This document shows positions 9,032 to 28,307 of a stretch of DNA of 29,701 nucleotides, one piece after another; positions within the stretch are counted from its first letter, which is position 1, and each line of letters starts with the position of its first letter. The notes under the pieces are model-generated. The model was not told where the DNA came from, did not search any database, and worked only from the letters and a program-made list of their open reading frames with translations. Source of the DNA: a virus; IMG/VR virus record IMGVR_UViG_3300048592_001278, positions 1 to 29,701 of that record. The stretch is one strand, 5' to 3'. The position numbers and the translations under genes were made by a program.

Positions 9032-10353
9032 GGGCGCGGCTGGCGCCGGCCGGGCGGCCGGTGCGCGGGCGCGAGCCGATGGCGCTCGCCCGCCACCAGG
9101 AGACGGCGGAGCTGCTGCGGCAGCTCGACCGGACGATCGGCCGGGCGGCCGCCGCGGTGGTCCAGCTCGATTCGACGATCGAGCGGGCGCTGCCGGCGAT
9201 GCTGGCGGTCAGGGAGCAGCTGGGCGAGGCGCTGGAGGCGGCGATCGCCATTGGACTGGACAAGCGGAAGCAGGAGAGCGGGCATGGCGAAGGCGAGGCA
9301 GGCGAGGGCGAAGGTCGAGGCGGCGATGCAGGTGCCGCAGAGCCGGGACGAGGCGACGCGGATGGTCGCCGAGATCGGCGAGCTGCAGCGCGCCAGGGCG
9401 GTGATCCAGGCGCAGATGAACGACGAGCTGGCGGCGATCAGGGCGGGCTACGAGGCGGAGGCGCTGCCGCTCGGCGAGCGGCTGAGTCGGCTGACGCAGG
9501 GGGTGCAGATCTGGGCGGCGGCCAACCGGGAGGAGCTGACCCGGGGCGGCCGGGTGAAGACGGCCCAGCTGCCGTCCGGCGAGATCGCCTGGCGGGTGCG
9601 GCCGCCGAAGGTGGCGATCCGGGGGGTGGAGGCGGTGATCGACGCGCTCCGGCGGCTCGGGCTCGACCGCTTCGTCAGGACGAAGGCGGAGATCTCGAAG
9701 GAGGCGATCCTGGCCGAGCCGGAGGCGGTGGCGATGATCGCCGGCATCTCGATCAGCCAGGGCGAGGACTTCGTGATCAAGCCCTTCGAGACGGCGCTGG
9801 AGGAGGTGGCCTGACGCCGCTGAAGGCGTCGGGCGAGGGCGCGAAGAAGGCGACCATCCTGCGACTGGTCGCCGATGCCGGCGAGGCCGGGCTGACCAGC
9901 GTCGAGCTGACCCGGATGACGGGCGCCGAGGACAGCAACAGCGTCTCGTCCTATCTCTCCACCCTTGTCGACGAGGGAGCGTTGCGCAAGGCCGGCAAGC
10001 GGCAGGGCATCGCGCGGCCGGTCGATGTCTACGTCGCGACCGGCGAGGCGCCGGTGCCGCGGGCGAAGGTGCCTGGCCACGCCACCGACCGGCCGGCGGG
10101 GCGGGCACCGGCGCATCGCGTGCCGGCGGCGCGGCTCTCGCCCGCCAGGGCGCTGCCCGAGGAGAGCTGGCCGGCCCGCATCGAGGTGGCGGTGCGGGCG
10201 CTGCGGCGGGACGACTGGGTGGTCTATCCGCTCGGCGGCGACCGCTGGGCGTGCGGGCATCTCCAGCTCACCGAGGCCGAGCTGCTCGCCAAGGCCGAGA
10301 AGGTGCGCGAGCGGCGGGCCGAGAAGGCCCGTCTGCAGGGAGCGGGAGCATGA
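9028..10353 (+). CDS. Unbroken 441-codon frame spanning an early gene, gam (another frame) and a wHTH gene
   Basis: ATG 9028 overlaps the preceding TGA and begins a helical protein (residues 1-85, including RHQETAELLRQLDRTIGRAA and MLAVREQLGEALEAAIAIGL). This head looks like a real early gene. The frame has no stop where one is expected near 9290 and runs through the gam region as a low-complexity Gly/Arg/Asp-rich shadow, then continues in phase into the winged-helix gene at 9811. Either the head gene lost its stop, a sequencing error hides one, or a readthrough fusion is made. I consider the head (9028 to about 9290) and tail (9811-10353) as two proteins the more natural reading; the middle is probably not meaningful protein. 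Confidence 0.35.
   Translation: MRARLAPAGRPVRGREPMALARHQETAELLRQLDRTIGRAAAAVVQLDSTIERALPAMLAVREQLGEALEAAIAIGLDKRKQESGHGEGEAGEGEGRGGDAGAAEPGRGDADGRRDRRAAARQGGDPGADERRAGGDQGGLRGGGAAARRAAESADAGGADLGGGQPGGADPGRPGEDGPAAVRRDRLAGAAAEGGDPGGGGGDRRAPAARARPLRQDEGGDLEGGDPGRAGGGGDDRRHLDQPGRGLRDQALRDGAGGGGLTPLKASGEGAKKATILRLVADAGEAGLTSVELTRMTGAEDSNSVSSYLSTLVDEGALRKAGKRQGIARPVDVYVATGEAPVPRAKVPGHATDRPAGRAPAHRVPAARLSPARALPEESWPARIEVAVRALRRDDWVVYPLGGDRWACGHLQLTEAELLAKAEKVRERRAEKARLQGAGA
9284..9814 (+). CDS. gam: Host-nuclease inhibitor Gam (Mu Gam family)
   Basis: The protein is 176 aa from ATG 9284, with CAGGAGAG 6-13 bases upstream. It matches the Mu Gam family along its length: an N-terminal helical coiled-coil region (residues about 10-70, SRDEATRMVAEIGELQRARA and AQMNDELAAIRAGYEAEALP), then GVQIWAAANREELTRGGR, GEIAWRVRPPKV and a C-terminal FVIKPFE. 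The family binds double-stranded DNA ends and blocks host exonucleases, and is related to Ku. Position after the transposase and MuB-like genes fits Mu. It lies in a different frame from the long open frame 9028-10353. The stop (CTGA) overlaps a probable CTG start of the next gene. Confidence 0.9.
   Translation: MAKARQARAKVEAAMQVPQSRDEATRMVAEIGELQRARAVIQAQMNDELAAIRAGYEAEALPLGERLSRLTQGVQIWAAANREELTRGGRVKTAQLPSGEIAWRVRPPKVAIRGVEAVIDALRRLGLDRFVRTKAEISKEAILAEPEAVAMIAGISISQGEDFVIKPFETALEEVA
9811..10353 (+). CDS. Winged-helix early protein, probable CTG start
   Basis: The meaningful protein begins right after gam (residues TPLKASGEGAKKATILRLVA). The only start-like codon in frame near the front is CTG 9811, which overlaps gam's TGA as CTGA and has a perfect AGGAGG at 9801-9806; the first ATG falls inside the helix-turn-helix. 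Residues about 14-65 form a winged helix (LTSVELTRMTGAEDSNSVSS, LSTLVDEGALRKAG). A basic linker follows, then a C-terminal block (ARIEVAVRALRRDDWVVYPL). A DNA-binding early function is likely, but no family is named. The same frame is open back to 9028. Confidence 0.55.
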   Translation: MTPLKASGEGAKKATILRLVADAGEAGLTSVELTRMTGAEDSNSVSSYLSTLVDEGALRKAGKRQGIARPVDVYVATGEAPVPRAKVPGHATDRPAGRAPAHRVPAARLSPARALPEESWPARIEVAVRALRRDDWVVYPLGGDRWACGHLQLTEAELLAKAEKVRERRAEKARLQGAGA

Positions 10354-10559
10354 ACGAGCAGACCTTCACCCTCGACGAGCAGATCGGGACGGTGGCGGAC
10401 GAGATCGGGCGGCGGGAGTACGTGCTGCGCGACCGGGTGCGGCTGCGCCGGATGTTGCCCGAGATCGCCGAGCGCGAGATCGCGCTGATGAAGGCGGTGC
10501 GGCAGACGCTGGTCGAGCTGCGGGAGCGCGCGGTGGCGCAGCCGGGAGGCGGGTCGTGA
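10350..10559 (+). CDS. Small helical early phage protein
   Basis: This 69-aa protein starts at ATG 10350, which overlaps the preceding TGA; GGGAGCGGGA lies upstream. It is highly charged and helical (LDEQIGTVADEIGRREYVLR, MLPEIAEREIALMKAVRQTL), consistent with a short coiled coil. Small proteins of this kind are common in Mu-like early operons. Function unknown. Confidence 0.65.
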   Translation: MNEQTFTLDEQIGTVADEIGRREYVLRDRVRLRRMLPEIAEREIALMKAVRQTLVELRERAVAQPGGGS

Positions 10560-10861
10560 GGGCGCCCAGCGAAAGGGAATGGAACGCCGAGATCGTGGAG
10601 CAGGGGATAGCCCTGGGCGATCTGGTCTTCGCTCTCGTCCGCGCCGAATGCGAGAGCAAGGCGCTCGGCGCCGATATCGGTCTCTTTGCCCTGGCGCACA
10701 CCATGGCGGCGATGTGCGCGGGGGTGGAGCTCTCCGGCTCGGTGGTGTCCGGCGAGGCGACATTGCGGATGTACGCGAAGCTCGCCGAGGCTGGAGTCGG
10801 CAGTATGCTCGAGGCGGCGCGCGCGAATGCCGCGCGGCCGGGCGCCGGAGGGCTGCACTGA
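10556..10861 (+). CDS. Hypothetical early phage protein
   Basis: This 101-aa protein starts at GTG 10556 (GTGA overlap) with GGGAGGCGG upstream. It is an alpha-helical globular protein with a hydrophobic middle (LGDLVFALVRAECESKALGA, IGLFALAHTMAAMCAGVELS). Base 10861 is both its last stop base and the first base of the next ATG. No known family is recognised. Confidence 0.6.
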   Translation: MRAPSEREWNAEIVEQGIALGDLVFALVRAECESKALGADIGLFALAHTMAAMCAGVELSGSVVSGEATLRMYAKLAEAGVGSMLEAARANAARPGAGGLH

Positions 10862-11136
10862 TGGCCGCCCGGGTGATGCGGCAGACCTCGGCCGAGGCGC
10901 GGGGCGCCATCCTGGCCGGGCTGCCGCGGCTGCGGCGGCAGGTGCTGAAGGCCATCGCCGCCGCCGGCCGGGTCGGCCTCACCGCCGACGAGGCGGCCGA
11001 GCTGGAAGGGATCTCGCCGCTCTCGACCCGGCCACGCTGCACCGAGCTCGCCGAGGCGGGGCTGATCCGCGACACCGGCGAGCGGCGGCGCAATGCCAGC
11101 GGCCGCAACGCCGTGGTCTGGGAGGCGGTCTGGTGA
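10861..11136 (+). CDS. Small winged-helix early protein
   Basis: This 91-aa protein carries a winged-helix domain over most of its length: LPRLRRQVLKAIAAAGRVGL, TADEAAELEGISPLSTRPRC, TELAEAGLIRDTGERRRNAS and AVVWEAVW. The last block resembles the beta wing of MarR/ArsR-like folds. The start overlaps the preceding stop by 1 base and the end overlaps the next start by 4. Probably an early DNA-binding protein; target unknown. Confidence 0.68.
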   Translation: MAARVMRQTSAEARGAILAGLPRLRRQVLKAIAAAGRVGLTADEAAELEGISPLSTRPRCTELAEAGLIRDTGERRRNASGRNAVVWEAVW

Positions 11137-21951: not shown

Positions 21952-22884
21952 ATGCCCGTCACCGTCGCCCCTTTCCCGACCGAGCCGCAGCTCACCGCGA
22001 TCGCCATCGGCTACCGCAACCAGAGCTACATCGCGGACGCCGTGCTGCCGCGGGTCTCGGTCGGCCGCCAGGAGTTCAAGTGGTGGCTCTATCCGGAGGA
22101 CGAGACCTTCGCCGCCCCGGACAGCCGCGTCGGCCGCCGCTCGAAGCCCAACGAGGTCGACCTCACCGCCACCGAGAGCACGTCCAAGACCGAGGATTTC
22201 GGCCTCGACGACCCGATCCCCTGGGCCGACATCGAGAACGCGCCGGCCGGGCGCGACCCGCGCGACCAGGCGGTGATGCAGCTCACCGACTACATCATGC
22301 TCTCGCGCGAGAAGCGCTGCGCCGACCTGGTCTTCGCCGCCGGCAGCTACCCGACCGGCTACAAGGCGACGCTCAGCTCCTCCGGCCAGTGGAGCCACGC
22401 CGACTCGACGCCGGTGACGGCGATCAACAACGCCCTCGACACGCCCCTGATGCGGCCCAACGTCATGGTGATCGGCCGCCAGGCCTGGACCATCCTCGCC
22501 ACCCACCCGCACATCATCAAGGCGGTCCAGGGCAATAGCGGCGATCGCGGCATCGCGTCCCGCCAGCAGGTGGCCGAGCTGTTCGAGCTCGAGGAGATCC
22601 TGGTCGGCGCGTCGCGGCTCAACACGGCGAAGAAGGGCCAGGCGGCGACGCTCGCCCGGGTCTGGGGCAAGCACTGCGCCCTGATCCACAGGAACCGCCT
22701 GGCGGACACGCGCGGCGGCCTGACGTTCGGCTACACGGCCGAATGGGGCGGCCGGGTCGCCGGGGCGATGGAGGACAGGAACATCGGCCTCCGCGGCGGC
22801 GAGGTGGTCCGGGTCGGCGAGAGCGTCAAGGAGCTGATCGTCGCCAACAAGGCCGGCTACCTCTTCACGGATGCCGTGGCCTGA
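21952..22884 (+). CDS. Major capsid protein (Mu T-like, HK97 fold)
   Basis: The protein is 310 aa, the usual size. Typical blocks: IAIGYRNQSYIADAVLPRVS, FKWWLYPEDETFAAPDSRVG, SREKRCADLVFAAGSYPTGY, RPNVMVIGRQAWTILATHPH, LFELEEILVGASRLNTAKKG. It follows the cement-like gene by 3 bases. It builds the prohead shell. The ATG lies after a GGGAGCC Shine-Dalgarno. Confidence 0.93.
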   Translation: MPVTVAPFPTEPQLTAIAIGYRNQSYIADAVLPRVSVGRQEFKWWLYPEDETFAAPDSRVGRRSKPNEVDLTATESTSKTEDFGLDDPIPWADIENAPAGRDPRDQAVMQLTDYIMLSREKRCADLVFAAGSYPTGYKATLSSSGQWSHADSTPVTAINNALDTPLMRPNVMVIGRQAWTILATHPHIIKAVQGNSGDRGIASRQQVAELFELEEILVGASRLNTAKKGQAATLARVWGKHCALIHRNRLADTRGGLTFGYTAEWGGRVAGAMEDRNIGLRGGEVVRVGESVKELIVANKAGYLFTDAVA

Positions 22885-23168
22885 TGCCGCTCTTCCGGGC
22901 CCGCTGGGACATCGACATGGGCGCTTCCCGGGTCACCCCCGGCGAGAGCGTCGAGCTCGACCAGGACGACCCGGCGCTGCCGGCGCTGCTGGCCGCCGGC
23001 GTGCTCGAGCTGCTGCCGGAGCCGAAGCAGCGGCAAGCGCCCGGGGCACCCGCCACCGCCGCCACCGAGAAACCCGACGCAAAGGCCCCCACCCCGGCTC
23101 CGGCCGAGGGGGGGGCGCCGGCGCGGGCGAAGGCCAGGCCCGGACGCACGGGCAAGGGCGAGGGGTGA
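22884..23168 (+). CDS. Small head-region protein with low-complexity tail
   Basis: This 94-aa protein starts at an ATG that shares its first base with the capsid stop. The N-terminal 45 residues look folded (RARWDIDMGASRVTPGESVE, LPALLAAGVLELLPEP); the rest is Ala/Pro/Lys rich. Position matches Mu gp35-like proteins that follow the capsid gene. The function is not known. Confidence 0.65.
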   Translation: MPLFRARWDIDMGASRVTPGESVELDQDDPALPALLAAGVLELLPEPKQRQAPGAPATAATEKPDAKAPTPAPAEGGAPARAKARPGRTGKGEG

Positions 23169-23316: not shown

Positions 23317-23664
23317 ATGTCGGCTCGCTACCCGGCCCCCGGCACAACGGTTCCCCAATGGTCGGCTTCCGCCCTGCCGGTCATCCCGCTCGACGACGCC
23401 AACGGCCAGCGGATCACGCTCACCGGCTCGTCGCAGGCAGCGGGTCCTCTGCCGGAGGGCTGCGACCTGGCGCTGGTGGCCAACCTCGGCGTCAATGTCG
23501 CCCATGTCTCGACGGACGGCACGACGACCGCGACGACTGCCATGACGCCGATAGTGTCCGGGCCTGGCCGGGATGTGGTCGTGACCGCCACCGACCGGAT
23601 CATCCGGCTGATCGGCACGGCCGCCGACGTCGTGGTGATCGTCCCCTACAAGCCGGCCGGCTGA
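23317..23664 (+). CDS. Hypothetical beta-rich phage protein
   Basis: This 115-aa protein starts at ATG 23317 after a GAGG Shine-Dalgarno. It looks beta-rich (GQRITLTGSSQAAGPLPEGC, VVTATDRIIRLIGTAADVVV) and could be a virion decoration or base-of-spike protein. The same frame is open upstream back to about 23187, so a longer form is possible. The stop overlaps the next start. No family is recognised. Confidence 0.6.
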   Translation: MSARYPAPGTTVPQWSASALPVIPLDDANGQRITLTGSSQAAGPLPEGCDLALVANLGVNVAHVSTDGTTTATTAMTPIVSGPGRDVVVTATDRIIRLIGTAADVVVIVPYKPAG

Positions 23665-23999
23665 TGCCGGGGCTGCAGACGGGGCTGGGGCTGGGGCTGA
23701 CGCGGGACGACGGCGGCGTGCTCGGCCCATGGGCCCTCTCCGTCTCGGACGGCTCCATCGTCCTCGCCTATGAGGCGGCCGAGGCGGCCTATCGTGCCGC
23801 GGCAGGCGGGAATTGGGTCATCCCGGTGGCTGGCGGCTCGTTCGTCGTGGCCCATGAAATCTATGGCTATGACTATCACCTGGCCGCGACGGCGTTGGGC
23901 ATCGGCGGGCCTCACGCGATCTTGGGCGCGGATGGCCATGTGACGTTCACCAACAATCCAGCAGAGGCGGCCTATCGGGCCGCGTGCGGGGGCGCATAA
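23664..23999 (+). CDS. Hypothetical protein upstream of DGR target, with an internal repeat
   Basis: This 111-aa protein begins MPGLQTGLGLGLTRDDGG, a start I associate with small virion-surface proteins, though not with a specific family. It carries two copies of an EAAYRAAxGG segment (about residues 41-51 and 100-110). It is co-oriented and overlaps the DGR variable gene by one base, so it is probably co-expressed, perhaps as an assembly partner of the variable protein. Function unknown. Confidence 0.6.
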   Translation: MPGLQTGLGLGLTRDDGGVLGPWALSVSDGSIVLAYEAAEAAYRAAAGGNWVIPVAGGSFVVAHEIYGYDYHLAATALGIGGPHAILGADGHVTFTNNPAEAAYRAACGGA

Positions 24000-25156
24000 T
24001 GTCCGACGTCCTGACGACCGATCCGCAGCGCATCGAGCGCCGCCCGTATCTTGCATACACCGAGCGTCGCTCGCCCGGGATCCATCGGGCGTACTGCGAC
24101 GACTCGTCGATGCTGACGCCATGGGAAATTCCGACGCGATCGGGACTCCGGGTGCTCTGCCATGAGCCTGAAGAGCAGCCCTACAGGCGGGCCGCCTACT
24201 CTCTCGGCATCCCGGTGGGCGTGCAGGACGTCGGCTGGAGCGAGGCCAATCGCCTTTCCGGCAGGTGGTTCGTCCCGCAGAACCTGGCCACATCGATCGT
24301 CTCTGGCGCCGCGCAATGCGATCTGGGCATGGACCCTTACACGGGCATCAATTTCGATACCGCGCAGGCGGCCTGTCGGGCCATGGGCGCCAATTGGTCG
24401 CTCATGTCGCAGGCGCAGTGGCACGCCCTCATGGTGATCTCGCAGAGCTACTGGATGGGACAAGGCAAGAACAACCCGACCGGCAACAGCCAGCATGGGC
24501 GGTCCGACCAGGTCACGAGCGAGGTCGGCATCAGGTCTGACCTCCTGGAGGTCGACGGGACCAACAAGGGCGCCTACGGCCGGACATTGAGCGGAATGAA
24601 AGCCGGCGGCGGCCTGCATCTGGCCTGGTCGCACGACGGCACGGCGCTCGGGGTTTTCGATCTGGTCGGCAATGTCTGGGAATGGGCGGAGGCCGCTCGA
24701 GTCAACAACGGGCGGATCGAGGTCATCCCCGCGTCGGCTGGCATCCACGCGGATCATGGCGCCAGCTCGACGGCGTGGAGGGCGGTCCGGCCTGACGGGA
24801 CACTCGTGGCCATCGGTGCCGGCGGCGACATGCTGCACTACGATGCCACTACGTCACTGATCTTCATCGCGACATCGCGGGGGACGATCGGCAATCAGAG
24901 CGCAATGTTCTACCAGCTCGGCGCCGGCTCGATCGCGCCCGTCCCGCCCGTATTGATCGCGATGGGGCTTTTCCCATGGTCGGCGTCGGTGCCGACGGTC
25001 GGGCGCTTCTACGTCGATACTAATGGCGAGCGCCTGCCGGTCCGGGGCGGGCACTGGAGCAGCGGGTCGTACGCGGGCGTCGCTGCCCTGAACCTGAACT
25101 ACGCCCGGGGCAGCGCGGGCACGAGCCTCGGCTTCCGTCCCGCTTTCGCCATCTGA
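23999..25156 (+). CDS. DGR variable protein, C-type-lectin/FGE-like fold
   Basis: The protein is 385 aa from ATG 23999 (TAATG overlap). The second half shows the formylglycine-generating-enzyme-like/C-lectin fold used by DGR target proteins: FDTAQAACRAMGANWSLMSQ, GVFDLVGNVWEWAEA, and the C-terminal LPVRGGHWSSG, AALNLNYARG, LGFRPAFAI. The last 38 residues (346-382 in particular) are encoded by VR. Residues diversified relative to TR are V348, H352, S354, S355, Y358, Y368, S372, G374, S376 and L377; N365 and N367 are also adenine-coded in TR but unchanged. In other DGR phages this protein is a receptor-binding tip. Its place here next to head genes is unusual. The protein's location in the virion is unproven. 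Confidence 0.9.
   Translation: MSDVLTTDPQRIERRPYLAYTERRSPGIHRAYCDDSSMLTPWEIPTRSGLRVLCHEPEEQPYRRAAYSLGIPVGVQDVGWSEANRLSGRWFVPQNLATSIVSGAAQCDLGMDPYTGINFDTAQAACRAMGANWSLMSQAQWHALMVISQSYWMGQGKNNPTGNSQHGRSDQVTSEVGIRSDLLEVDGTNKGAYGRTLSGMKAGGGLHLAWSHDGTALGVFDLVGNVWEWAEAARVNNGRIEVIPASAGIHADHGASSTAWRAVRPDGTLVAIGAGGDMLHYDATTSLIFIATSRGTIGNQSAMFYQLGAGSIAPVPPVLIAMGLFPWSASVPTVGRFYVDTNGERLPVRGGHWSSGSYAGVAALNLNYARGSAGTSLGFRPAFAI
25028..25144 (+). repeat. DGR variable repeat (VR)
   Basis: This 117-bp copy at the 3' end of the variable gene aligns without gaps to TR (25555-25671, offset 527). There are 12 mismatches and all 12 are at TR adenines (g, c or t in VR). The last 16 bases (CGGCTTCCGTCCCGCT region) are identical and would hold the site where mutagenic transfer begins. 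Beyond 25144 non-adenine differences start. Confidence 0.95.
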
Positions 25157-25199
25157 TGATCTGCAGCGTGGTCATCTGCCAAGTGAGCGATAGCGAACG

Positions 25200-25763
25200 G
25201 TGCCTGAAGATCTCAAGATCAAGACCAAGGTCGAGGACTGCCTCGCCTGGAGCTATGTGGCGCTGCGTCAATTCCCCAAGCACGAGCGGCACGTCCTGGC
25301 GGCGGAGATCCGCACCTCGCTCTGGCGGCTGCTCCGCCTGGTCGTCACCTGCAATCGTCGGCACTACAAGAAGACGACGTTGCAGGACCTCGACGTCGAG
25401 CTCGACCTGCTCCGCTCACAGGTCCGCCTGGCGCACGCGCTGCGCTACATCGATATCGCCAAGTACGAGACGTGGTCGCGCCAGCTCGACGAGATCGGCC
25501 GCATGGTCGGCGGCTGGCTGCGATCGCAAAGAGGGGGTGCCGGCATGCCGGCTGAAGCGCCTGCCGATCCGGGGCGGGAACTGGAACAACGGGTCGAACG
25601 CGGGCGTCGCTGCCCTGAACCTGAACAACGCCCGGGGCAACGCGAACACGAACATCGGCTTCCGTCCCGCTCTCGGGGACCGTCAGAAGGCGCCGGCTCA
25701 CGGGCCGGCGTCCAGCACACCCTCGAAAGGGCCGGCGCTCCACGGCCAAGCGCCGAAACATGA
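25200..25763 (+). CDS. avd: Avd, DGR accessory protein (four-helix bundle)
   Basis: GTG 25200 gives 187 aa. Residues about 1-108 match Avd: KTKVEDCLAWSYVALRQFPK, HERHVLAAEIRTSLWRLLRL, TTLQDLDVELDLLRSQVRLA, YIDIAKYETWSRQLDEIGRM. It is basic and helical and would form the pentameric barrel that binds the RT and template RNA. After about residue 110 the frame does not stop: it crosses the whole TR and ends at 25763, giving an Arg/Glu/Pro-rich tail. Whether this tail is functional or merely open by composition is unknown. It lies 43 bases after the variable gene and precedes TR, as is usual. Confidence 0.85.
   Translation: MPEDLKIKTKVEDCLAWSYVALRQFPKHERHVLAAEIRTSLWRLLRLVVTCNRRHYKKTTLQDLDVELDLLRSQVRLAHALRYIDIAKYETWSRQLDEIGRMVGGWLRSQRGGAGMPAEAPADPGRELEQRVERGRRCPEPEQRPGQREHEHRLPSRSRGPSEGAGSRAGVQHTLERAGAPRPSAET
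25555..25671 (+). repeat. DGR template repeat (TR)
   Basis: This is the 117-bp invariant donor of VR. It has 25 adenines, many as AAC codons in the VR frame (GGNWNNGSNAG, LNLNNARGNANTN), of which 12 differ in VR. AAC is the safe hypermutable codon because changes at A cannot create a stop. It lies between the Avd core and the RT gene and would be transcribed as part of the template RNA. A perfect 7-bp hairpin CGCCGGC/GCCGGCG (25691-25697 with 25704-25710) follows in the spacer. Confidence 0.95.
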
Positions 25764-25823
25764 AGAGGCCGGGCCGGGCCAGTACCTTCGGGGGACCTTC
25801 CGGCCCGACCGCCTCATGAGCCC

Positions 25824-26963
25824 GTGAAGAGCTTCGCGGGCATCTTCAGCCGGATCACGCCGTTCGCGTCGCTGCATGCCGCCTGGCTGCGGGCGCGGAA
25901 GGGCAAGCGCAGCAATGGCGACATGCTCGCCTTCGAGGCCGATCTCGAGCCGAACCTCTTCGCGATCCAGGAAAGCCTGCTGCAGCGCAGCTATCGCACC
26001 GGCCCCTATCGCCTCTTCGAGATCTTCGAGCCCAAGCGTCGCGTGGTCGCGGCGTTGCCGATCAAGGATCGCATCGTCCAGCACGCGCTCGTTGCGCAGA
26101 TCGAACCGATCTGGGAGGCGCGCTTCGACCGGCACAGCTATGCCTGTCGGGTCGGCAAGGGCACGCATGCCGGGGCCGACCAGGCGCAGGCGATGATGCG
26201 CCAGGTGCTCCGGCAGAATGGGCGGGTCGCGGCACTGAAGGGCGACATCGCGCGCTGCTTTCCGTCGATCTGCCACGATGTGCTGAAGCGCCTGATTCGC
26301 AGCCACGTGGCGTGCCGCGACACCCTCTGGCTGATCGACGAGATCATCGACAGCGCGGCCGAGCCTGGAGCGCTGCTGCCCCGCGGGATCCCGATCGGCA
26401 ATCTGTCGAGCCAGCTCTTCGCCAACATCTGTCTCGATCGGCTGGACCGATTCGTCCGCCAGGAGCTGCACTGGCGGCACTATGTTCGCTACATGGACGA
26501 TTTCATGCTGCTGGGCTCCGACAAGGCAGCCCTGCACGAGGCGCGTCGCTCGATCGAGGGCTTCCTGCATGCCGAGCTCGGATTACGGGTCAACGCGAAG
26601 ACCCAGGTCTTTCCGATCGGCGGCCCGCGCGGCCGCTGTCTCGACTTTCTCGGTTATCGCATCTGGCCGACGCATCGCCGGCTGCGTGAAGGCTGTGTGA
26701 AGCGCATCCGGCGGCGCTTCAAATCGCTGGCGCGGCGCTACCACGAAGGCCGGGTCTCGCTCGAGGAGATCGAGGCCGTGGTGGCGTCCTGGCTCGGTCA
26801 TGCCCGGCATGCCGACGCCGGGCGGCTGGTGGACATGGTGCTGGCCGAGCTGGTGCTCGTGCCGCAAAGGAGGAGAGAGACGTGCTGGATATCATCATCG
26901 AGCGAGGTGGAGGGCCGGCCGAGGGTGGCGGGTCGGACGCGCGGCCAGCCGTCGAGGTCGTGA
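25824..26963 (+). CDS. DGR reverse transcriptase
   Basis: The protein is 379 aa. RT motifs in order: AALKGDIARCFPSI (D141), GIPIGNLSSQLFANI with the DGR hallmark G-x3-SQ (G192-Q197), VRYMDDFMLLG (YMDD 223-226; D225 and D226 catalytic), then GLRVNAKTQVFPIGG and LDFLGYRIW. It lacks the domains of group II intron maturases, which supports a DGR enzyme. It copies the TR RNA with errors at adenines and the cDNA replaces VR. GTG 25824 is the start chosen by homology. The end overlaps the next gene by 82 bases, and the last 35 residues or so look like shadow. Confidence 0.95.
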   Translation: MKSFAGIFSRITPFASLHAAWLRARKGKRSNGDMLAFEADLEPNLFAIQESLLQRSYRTGPYRLFEIFEPKRRVVAALPIKDRIVQHALVAQIEPIWEARFDRHSYACRVGKGTHAGADQAQAMMRQVLRQNGRVAALKGDIARCFPSICHDVLKRLIRSHVACRDTLWLIDEIIDSAAEPGALLPRGIPIGNLSSQLFANICLDRLDRFVRQELHWRHYVRYMDDFMLLGSDKAALHEARRSIEGFLHAELGLRVNAKTQVFPIGGPRGRCLDFLGYRIWPTHRRLREGCVKRIRRRFKSLARRYHEGRVSLEEIEAVVASWLGHARHADAGRLVDMVLAELVLVPQRRRETCWISSSSEVEGRPRVAGRTRGQPSRS

Positions 26964-27334
26964 CGAAGGAACGGGTGACGGCGGCCGAGTTGGCCAAGGC
27001 GCGTGCCGTGGACGCCTATTGGGGCGGCGTGCGGGCGGCCGCGCTCCGACTGCAGATCCGGCAGCTGCGCGACGGCCGGGTGCTCGGCCCGCCCGATCCG
27101 GTGCGGGCGGCGATCGCGGCCGCGGAGGCCGAGCTTGTCGATGCCGATGCACTCGCGCGTGCAGCGGCGCCCGAGGAGATCGCCGCCGCGCGGGCGTCGA
27201 CCAAGGGCGGTCAGCGCATGGCCGGGCTCGGCGAGTGGCTGCGGGGCGCGGCCCTGGTCGAGATGGTCGGCGAGGACAAGGTCGAGGTGGTGATGCGGGG
27301 CGGCGACGCGGCGCGGGCGCCAAGGGCGGTCTGA
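26882..27334 (+). CDS. Unknown protein at the 3' end of the DGR cassette
   Basis: This 150-aa protein starts at GTG 26882 with a strong AGGAGGAGAG Shine-Dalgarno, inside the 3' end of the RT gene. It is acidic/helical (TAAELAKARAVDAYWGGVRA, DPVRAAIAAAEAELVDADAL, MAGLGEWLRGAALVEMVGED). It is co-directional with and coupled to the RT and ends 2 bases before late motif 3. I do not recognise a family. It could be a DGR accessory factor or a structural gene of the capsid block cut off from it by DGR insertion. Confidence 0.6.
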   Translation: MLDIIIERGGGPAEGGGSDARPAVEVVTKERVTAAELAKARAVDAYWGGVRAAALRLQIRQLRDGRVLGPPDPVRAAIAAAEAELVDADALARAAAPEEIAAARASTKGGQRMAGLGEWLRGAALVEMVGEDKVEVVMRGGDAARAPRAV

Positions 27335-27336
27335 GC

Positions 27337-27378
27337 CACCTGTCGGGGTTCCTGCGGCTTCGGCGCGGGTGGCATGGT
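27337..27378 (+). promoter_or_regulatory. Candidate late promoter 3 (neck/tail operon)
   Basis: CACCTGTCGGGGTTCC lies at 27337-27352, identical to copies 1 and 2, with CATGGT 20 bases downstream (27373-27378), aligning with the TAATAG of copy 2. The first gene of the block starts at 27404. Confidence 0.62.
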
Positions 27379-27403
27379 CCGGCCGTGCCAGCGGGCGATC
27401 CTC

Positions 27404-27820
27404 ATGAGCTATTGCACGTCAGACCAGCTGGTCGCGCGCTTCGGCCTCGACCAGCTCCTCGCGATCGCCGACCACTCGGGCGACGACGCGCTCGACGTGA
27501 CCAGCGTCGACGCCGCGATCGCCGATGCGGCGGCCGAGATCGAGAGCTACCTGCGCCGGCGCTACGCCCTGCCGCTGGTCTCGGTCGACCCCGCCCTCGC
27601 CGCCATCGCCTGCGACATCGCCTTCTACCGCCTGCACCCGGCCGACCAGCCGGACGACGTGCGGCGCCGCTACGAGGACGCCCGGCGCTGGCTCGGCGAG
27701 CTCGCCGCCGGGCGGATCGAGATCGACACCGGGGCGCCCGCCGGCACCGGCGGCAGCGGCGAGGCCCGGGTCTCGGCCCCGGCCCGGGTCTTCACCCGCG
27801 ACACGCTTTCGGGCTTCTGA
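27404..27820 (+). CDS. DUF1320 protein (Mu gp36-like head-tail connector)
   Basis: The protein is 138 aa from ATG 27404 (another in-frame ATG lies at 27374). It matches DUF1320: YCTSDQLVARFGLDQLLAIA, VDAAIADAAAEIESYLRRRY, CDIAFYRLHPADQPDDVRRR, and RYEDARRWLGELAAGRIEI. In Mu-like phages this gene is J/gp36, an adaptor at the head-tail joint. The C-terminus is a Gly/Ala-rich tail. Confidence 0.88.
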   Translation: MSYCTSDQLVARFGLDQLLAIADHSGDDALDVTSVDAAIADAAAEIESYLRRRYALPLVSVDPALAAIACDIAFYRLHPADQPDDVRRRYEDARRWLGELAAGRIEIDTGAPAGTGGSGEARVSAPARVFTRDTLSGF

Positions 27821-27836: not shown

Positions 27837-28307
27837 GTGACGACGACCGGCGTCCGCCTCGAGGCCACGATCGACGACGCGGCGGTGCGCGCGGCGCTCG
27901 CCGATCTCGCCCGGCGCGGCGCCGATCTGTCCGAGCCCATGGACGACATCGCCGCCTACCTCGAGGCCTCGACCACGGACCGCTTCCTCAGCGGCCAGGT
28001 CGGGCCGGACGGCAGGCCCTGGCCGCCCTCCGACCGGGCCCGCCGCGAGGGCGGCAAGACCCTCGTCGACAAGGGCGCCCAGGGCGGGCTGCTCGGCTCG
28101 CTCACCTCCACGAGCTCCGCGCTCGAGGCCGTGGTCGGCGTCGCCAAGCCCTATGCCGCCATCCACCAGCTCGGCGGCCGGGCCGGCCGCGGCGGCCAGA
28201 CCGAGATCCTGGCGCGCCCCTATCTCGGCCTCTCGGCCGAGGACGAGCGCGAGGTCACCTCGATTCTCGAAGACTGGCTCGGCCAGGTGCCCGGGGTGTC
28301 GGCATGA
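27837..28307 (+). CDS. Phage virion morphogenesis protein (Mu G-like)
   Basis: The protein is 156 aa from GTG 27837. Key blocks: LEATIDDAAVRAALADLARR, DLSEPMDDIAAYLEAS, EGGKTLVDKG, LTSTSSALEAVVGVAKPYA, IHQLGGRAGRGGQ, ARPYLGLSAEDEREV. It is the same family as the orphan at 2049-2513. It is a tail completion/joining protein and sits in the usual place between the gp36- and gp37-like genes. An ATG at 27823 opens only a five-codon frame that ends in the GTG. Confidence 0.87.
   Translation: MTTTGVRLEATIDDAAVRAALADLARRGADLSEPMDDIAAYLEASTTDRFLSGQVGPDGRPWPPSDRARREGGKTLVDKGAQGGLLGSLTSTSSALEAVVGVAKPYAAIHQLGGRAGRGGQTEILARPYLGLSAEDEREVTSILEDWLGQVPGVSA

Follow-up and report, generated by a model that had tools for sequence, protein, structure and literature searches.

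A diversity-generating retroelement between the head and neck genes of a Mu-like phage, and the possible display of its target protein away from the tail tip

A complete diversity-generating retroelement (DGR) was found between the genes for the major head protein and the gp36 head-tail adaptor of a Mu-like transposable phage. The preliminary description of this DNA had placed it there and had called it complete, and on both points it was right: the target gene, variable repeat (VR), accessory gene avd, template repeat (TR) and reverse transcriptase (RT) gene were all intact and in order. The same slot is occupied in L002, a separate 6.6-kb record from metagenome 3300023199 whose RT is 76% identical. 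The mechanism is known; what is new is the head/neck slot, used in two phages with different head families, and the altered attachment segment of the target. Judged from gene order and this changed N-terminus, the chance of a head or neck location for the product appears about even. The window, that is the whole stretch of DNA analysed, is a single linear viral record of 29,701 bases whose last gene encodes the tail tube.

The phage was confirmed to be a Mu-like transposable phage. A MuA-type transposase (rve and Mu-transpos_C matches) and a MuB-type ATPase (AAA/TniB match) were present in the window, and the Mu head genes occurred in Mu order, with gp27, Portal_Mu, Phage_Mu_F and gp36 matches; the Mu-like label given earlier agreed with the MuA, gp27, Portal_Mu and Phage_Mu_F matches. 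A tRNA-Phe gene was located at 1326–1401, at the left end, and this left-end DNA is probably host DNA. Near the same end, beside a repressor-like ORF, a second PF05069 gene (virion morphogenesis, gpG-type) was observed at 2049–2513, and its protein was closely similar in sequence to that of the PF05069 gene at 27840–28307.

All features of the head/neck slot were on the plus strand. The major head protein gene of the Mu-like head block (21952–22884; phrog_1005, E 8e-99) was followed by a gene for a small protein at the gp35 position (22884–23168), which gave a weak match to the connector family phrog_2322 (E 0.004); a short ORF resembling it occupied the same place in DGR-less relatives. Two ORFs of unassigned function came next. 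For the one at 23317–23664, no match was found in Pfam, PHROG or phage records, and its predicted model was unusable (pLDDT 34). For the one at 23664–23999, relatives were searched in phage records and families and none was found. These coupled short ORFs are candidate anchor or adaptor proteins, and the second was stop/start coupled (ATAATG) to the target gene at 23999–25156, for which an in-frame GTG at 23984 is a possible alternative start. The DGR then continued with the VR (25029–25144), a hairpin, avd (25200–25763), the TR (25556–25671) and the RT gene (25824–26963; phrog_1423, E 1e-130; RVT_1, E 2e-18). The ORF of unassigned function between RT and gp36 (26882–27334) had been included when the element was first delimited as 23999–27334. 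It showed no recognisable link to the DGR and is probably outside the element; its counterpart in L002 was barely similar, and the sharing was not convincing. The neck genes followed, with Mu gp36 at 27374–27820 (PF07030, E 3.5e-33; connector family phrog_195, E 2e-43) and a phage virion morphogenesis protein at the Mu gpG position (27840–28307; PF05069, E 9e-28), to the right of which lay the tail terminator and then the tail tube.

The placement claimed to be unusual proved to be so. Fifty records with related RTs were surveyed for position, 15 of them with gp36; the RT lay 7–17 kb downstream of gp36 in 14 of these 15, and upstream only in L002, as in the window. Likewise, the target was 3.6–9.4 kb downstream of the neck markers in 17/17 other loci having both, and only in the window and L002 was it upstream. 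The target gene of the window is not beside tail-fibre genes; it lies between head protein/gp35 and gp36. The order in L002 was head protein, gp35, target, Avd, TR, RT, an ORF, gp36 and a gpG-type protein; its head protein belongs to phrog_371 and that of the window to phrog_1005, with the cassette in the same slot, and in both records the target was stop/start coupled to the preceding gene. Phages with heads most like that of the window had either no DGR that could be seen or a DGR at the extreme right end, the latter including three phages whose head protein was 54–60% identical. In DGR-less head relatives, the gap between head protein and gp36 was at most about 1.2 kb and held mostly one gp35-type ORF.

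No further head-slot case was found among 332 loci in two extra scans, the target protein as a query in a scan of viral contigs gave no match, and a search for DGRs beside head genes found no precedent within the literature library searched. The P2-like phages L017, L048 and L205 were considered as head-slot cases and ruled out, because their internal DGRs sit behind P2-type baseplate/fibre genes, as named from reading the sequences. The head-slot cases are two contigs only, both ending before the tail-fibre genes; in the window, the tail-fibre end is outside view because the linear fragment stops in the tail-tube gene. As a separate observation, the podophage-like L209 carried a DGR with two tandem avd copies with identical beginnings (10001–10336 and 10558–10893), and its target gene directly followed one for an SU10-type adaptor, within a head/connector block.

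The VR and TR aligned over 116 nt without gaps and with 11 mismatches, all of which (11/11) fell at TR adenines and none at other positions. With 24 adenines in the TR, the chance of such a pattern with random mismatches was about 3e-9. The differences altered ten residues of the target between 348 and 377, and the VR ended 9 nt before the target stop codon. One TR and one VR were present; a second VR was sought across the whole window and was not found. The RT motifs reported from the first reading, YMDD (RYMDD) and G-x3-SQ (IPIGNLSSQ), were intact in the alignment. Avd was identified by the bAvd family PF22296 (E 1.8e-29) and by phrog_3206 (E 1.5e-39). Its conserved core extended to about 25529, after which the ORF read through the TR. 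This was seen in both records: the avd frame had no stop before the TR and crossed it in the window (25530–25763) and in L002 (3689–3922), giving a 187-aa ORF. Between the two records, dN/dS was 0.22 for the Avd core vs 0.96 for the extension crossing the TR, an extension without protein-level constraint.

A GRNA-loop hairpin after the VR is needed for efficient homing in BPP-1 (PMC3240598). In the window, a candidate hairpin (GTGAGC-GATA-GCGAAC, 25183–25198) with a GATA loop was found at the usual distance after the VR, and its stem consisted of 2 Watson–Crick pairs, a tandem G.A step and 2 more pairs. Loss or decay of the hairpin in both head-slot elements was considered and dropped, as a loop-centred survey found that the tandem G.A variant recurs, including in other intact DGRs. 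The form ..GAGC-GATA-GCGA.. was observed in the window, L034, L095/L099, L029/L031/L067/L105, L070, L056 and L112; among distinct hairpins with both stem positions 3–4 unpaired, 7/7 carried the tandem G.A mismatch there, and no other double mismatch at these positions occurred in the survey. The recurrence suggests that the tandem G.A step is a kept, non-Watson–Crick variant of the hairpin.

In an RT tree of 111 rows, the window and L002 RTs formed one clade (100/100) nested among alphaproteobacterial Mu-like DGRs, and the members of the surrounding clade with readable position were at the tail end. Since the two head-slot RTs group together within tail-end DGRs, the simplest reading is that the cassette was probably relocated once. 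G+C was 66.8% in the DGR vs 73–74% around it. RT and Avd were under purifying selection, with dN/dS of 0.28 for the RT between window and L002 and the low value of the Avd core given above. The TRs of the two records differed at six positions, and at each of them the local VR had the base of its own TR, so homing continued after the two lineages split. This concerted TR/VR evolution and the dN/dS of the RT argue for a cassette in continued use; concerted change records past homing only, and we infer that mutagenic homing goes on today.

The target protein combined a familiar core with an unfamiliar N-terminus. Its match to phrog_2889 (E 7e-63) covered profile positions 134–414 only, and in a Foldseek comparison the core matched TaqVP (E 9e-30, TM 0.73), a C-lectin fold of the FGE type. 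A search of the PDB with the target-family profile gave 5vf4 as the sole match, and many of the viral structure matches were annotated as tail fibres. By family searches, nothing matched the N-terminal 95 residues, no Ig-like or known capsid-binding domain was found in the target, and neither the new N-terminus nor the neighbouring ORFs matched any head or neck family. The AlphaFold model of the N-terminus was unreliable (block pLDDT about 32–53). For the N-terminal module (LRxSVEAASGGxxTVLY...EIFIG), a profile was built from 26 tail-type targets and applied to 186 full-length targets of the close family, 183 of which reached 36 bits or more. This is not a count of independent cases, because near-copies are among the 183, and a longer Firmicutes-type group with another N-terminus was excluded by a core-score cut-off. 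Of the three exceptions, the window gave no match and L002 reached 23.7 bits; the third was L209. The changed N-terminus is compatible with a different anchoring of the protein.

Absence of a phrog_8734 partner gene was also considered as a telling sign and was dropped, since this gene is present in only 79/183 relatives and absent from the sister clade. A small gene of this type was observed directly before the target in L007 (7885–8196), L205 (8439–8774) and L048 (7778–8110), and it may serve the target as a tail adaptor.

In its parts and their order, in adenine mutagenesis and in having a C-lectin target, the element agrees with that of Bordetella phage BPP-1 (mtd-avd-TR-brt), whose RT is about 38% identical to that of the window, and the candidate hairpin after the VR would correspond to the GRNA-loop hairpin of BPP-1. 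The BPP-1 target, however, forms the tip of the tail fibre and has an N-terminus that trimerises (PMC6328139), whereas the present cassette lies in a Mu-like head/neck block. TaqVP, from the DGR of a Thermus aquaticus prophage (PDB 5vf4, PMC6328139), shares the target family and core fold but has the standard N-terminal module (LRQAVEAASGG..TVMYT). Among alphaproteobacterial Mu-like phages, tail-end DGRs such as those of L007 (in Rhodobacter aestuarii) and L003 (in Devosia) agree in phage type, in Avd/TR/RT order and in an RT 59–60% identical, and differ in that gp36 lies about 15 kb upstream of the RT. Hankyphage of Bacteroides is a transposable phage with an active DGR, but its target is a tail fibre (PMC12135933). 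Faecalibacterium phage Mushu (PMC5883640, PMC11792537) is likewise transposable and Mu-like, with a Hoc-like target proposed to decorate the capsid; its cassette, in contrast, lies at the right end, beyond the tail genes, and its Ig-domain target is encoded after the RT. Because of Mushu, the capsid idea is not wholly new, and the suggestion of a new use of DGR diversity in a transposable phage was overstated, both DGRs in Mu-like phages and a capsid-decorating target having already been described. A global survey in 2021 reported that viral targets of three DGR clades are mostly tail structures, and recast Ig-linked targets as tail fibres (PMC8144416).

Three other explanations were weighed. 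The most serious is that the target is still a receptor-binding protein of the tail tip or tail side, the cassette having moved and the N-terminus having changed as the tail of this phage differs. The core, being of the phrog_2889/TaqVP type, resembles tail-linked targets; the target of the siphophage relative L007 lies in the block behind the central tail fibre J gene, that of the P2-like relatives follows baseplate/fibre genes, and the DGRs of Hankyphage and BPP-1 diversify tail fibres (PMC12135933, PMC3240598). Set against this are the retention of one head/neck slot in two phages with differing head-protein families and the lack, in both head-slot targets, of an intact N-terminal module, which is retained in nearly all relatives. 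We regard this explanation as a real contender, with roughly a one-in-three standing in our judgement.

It is improbable that the cassette is tolerated cargo between head and neck genes, decaying and without structural role. Its G+C is below that of the surroundings and its hairpin stem deviates from Watson–Crick pairing, which would suit such cargo; yet all parts are intact, RT and Avd core show the low dN/dS values above, the VR tracks the TR in both lineages, and hairpins with the same tandem G.A step recur in other intact DGRs. An assembly chimera, in which a DGR fragment was joined to an unrelated Mu-like phage, could be suspected from a single viral record with a DGR of unlike G+C. This explanation is close to refuted by the same gene order in the separate record L002, and stop/start coupling was seen among the genes surrounding the cassette.

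The preferred account is one of display on the head or head-tail junction, and we give it as a whole a probability of roughly 0.5. By an ordinary BPP-1-type mechanism, RT and Avd would copy the RNA of the TR inaccurately at adenines, and the resulting cDNA would replace the VR at the end of the C-lectin target gene. The DGR would descend from tail-fibre-end DGRs of alphaproteobacterial Mu-like phages and would have made a single move into the slot between major head protein/gp35 and gp36, where the target gene would have joined the late head operon and the N-terminal segment by which its product attaches would have changed. The product would then be a hypervariable lectin displayed away from the tail tip and used, for example, to make first contact with glycans that vary on cell surfaces or in the environment; we infer both its ligand and its benefit. 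Against such display count the following points: the place of a gene does not settle where its product sits in the virion, the core fold is that of tail-linked DGR proteins, many viral structure matches are annotated as tail fibres, the searches gave no head or neck family for the new N-terminus or the neighbouring ORFs, the model of the N-terminus is unreliable, and the head-slot contigs are only two and truncated.

It may be, at odds a little short of even, that this Mu-like lineage shows a DGR-hypermutated C-lectin on its head or junction, the cassette having moved, the attachment segment having been replaced and hypervariable binding being no longer tied to the tail tip. Capsid decoration by Hoc-like targets of the Mushu type is still a proposal, and the pair formed by the window and L002 offers a clean test, in which cassette and core are the same while genomic slot and attachment segment have changed. 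Should the product indeed belong to the head or neck, DGR diversity would have a use beyond the choice of receptor by the tail tip, for example in first contact with varying surfaces.
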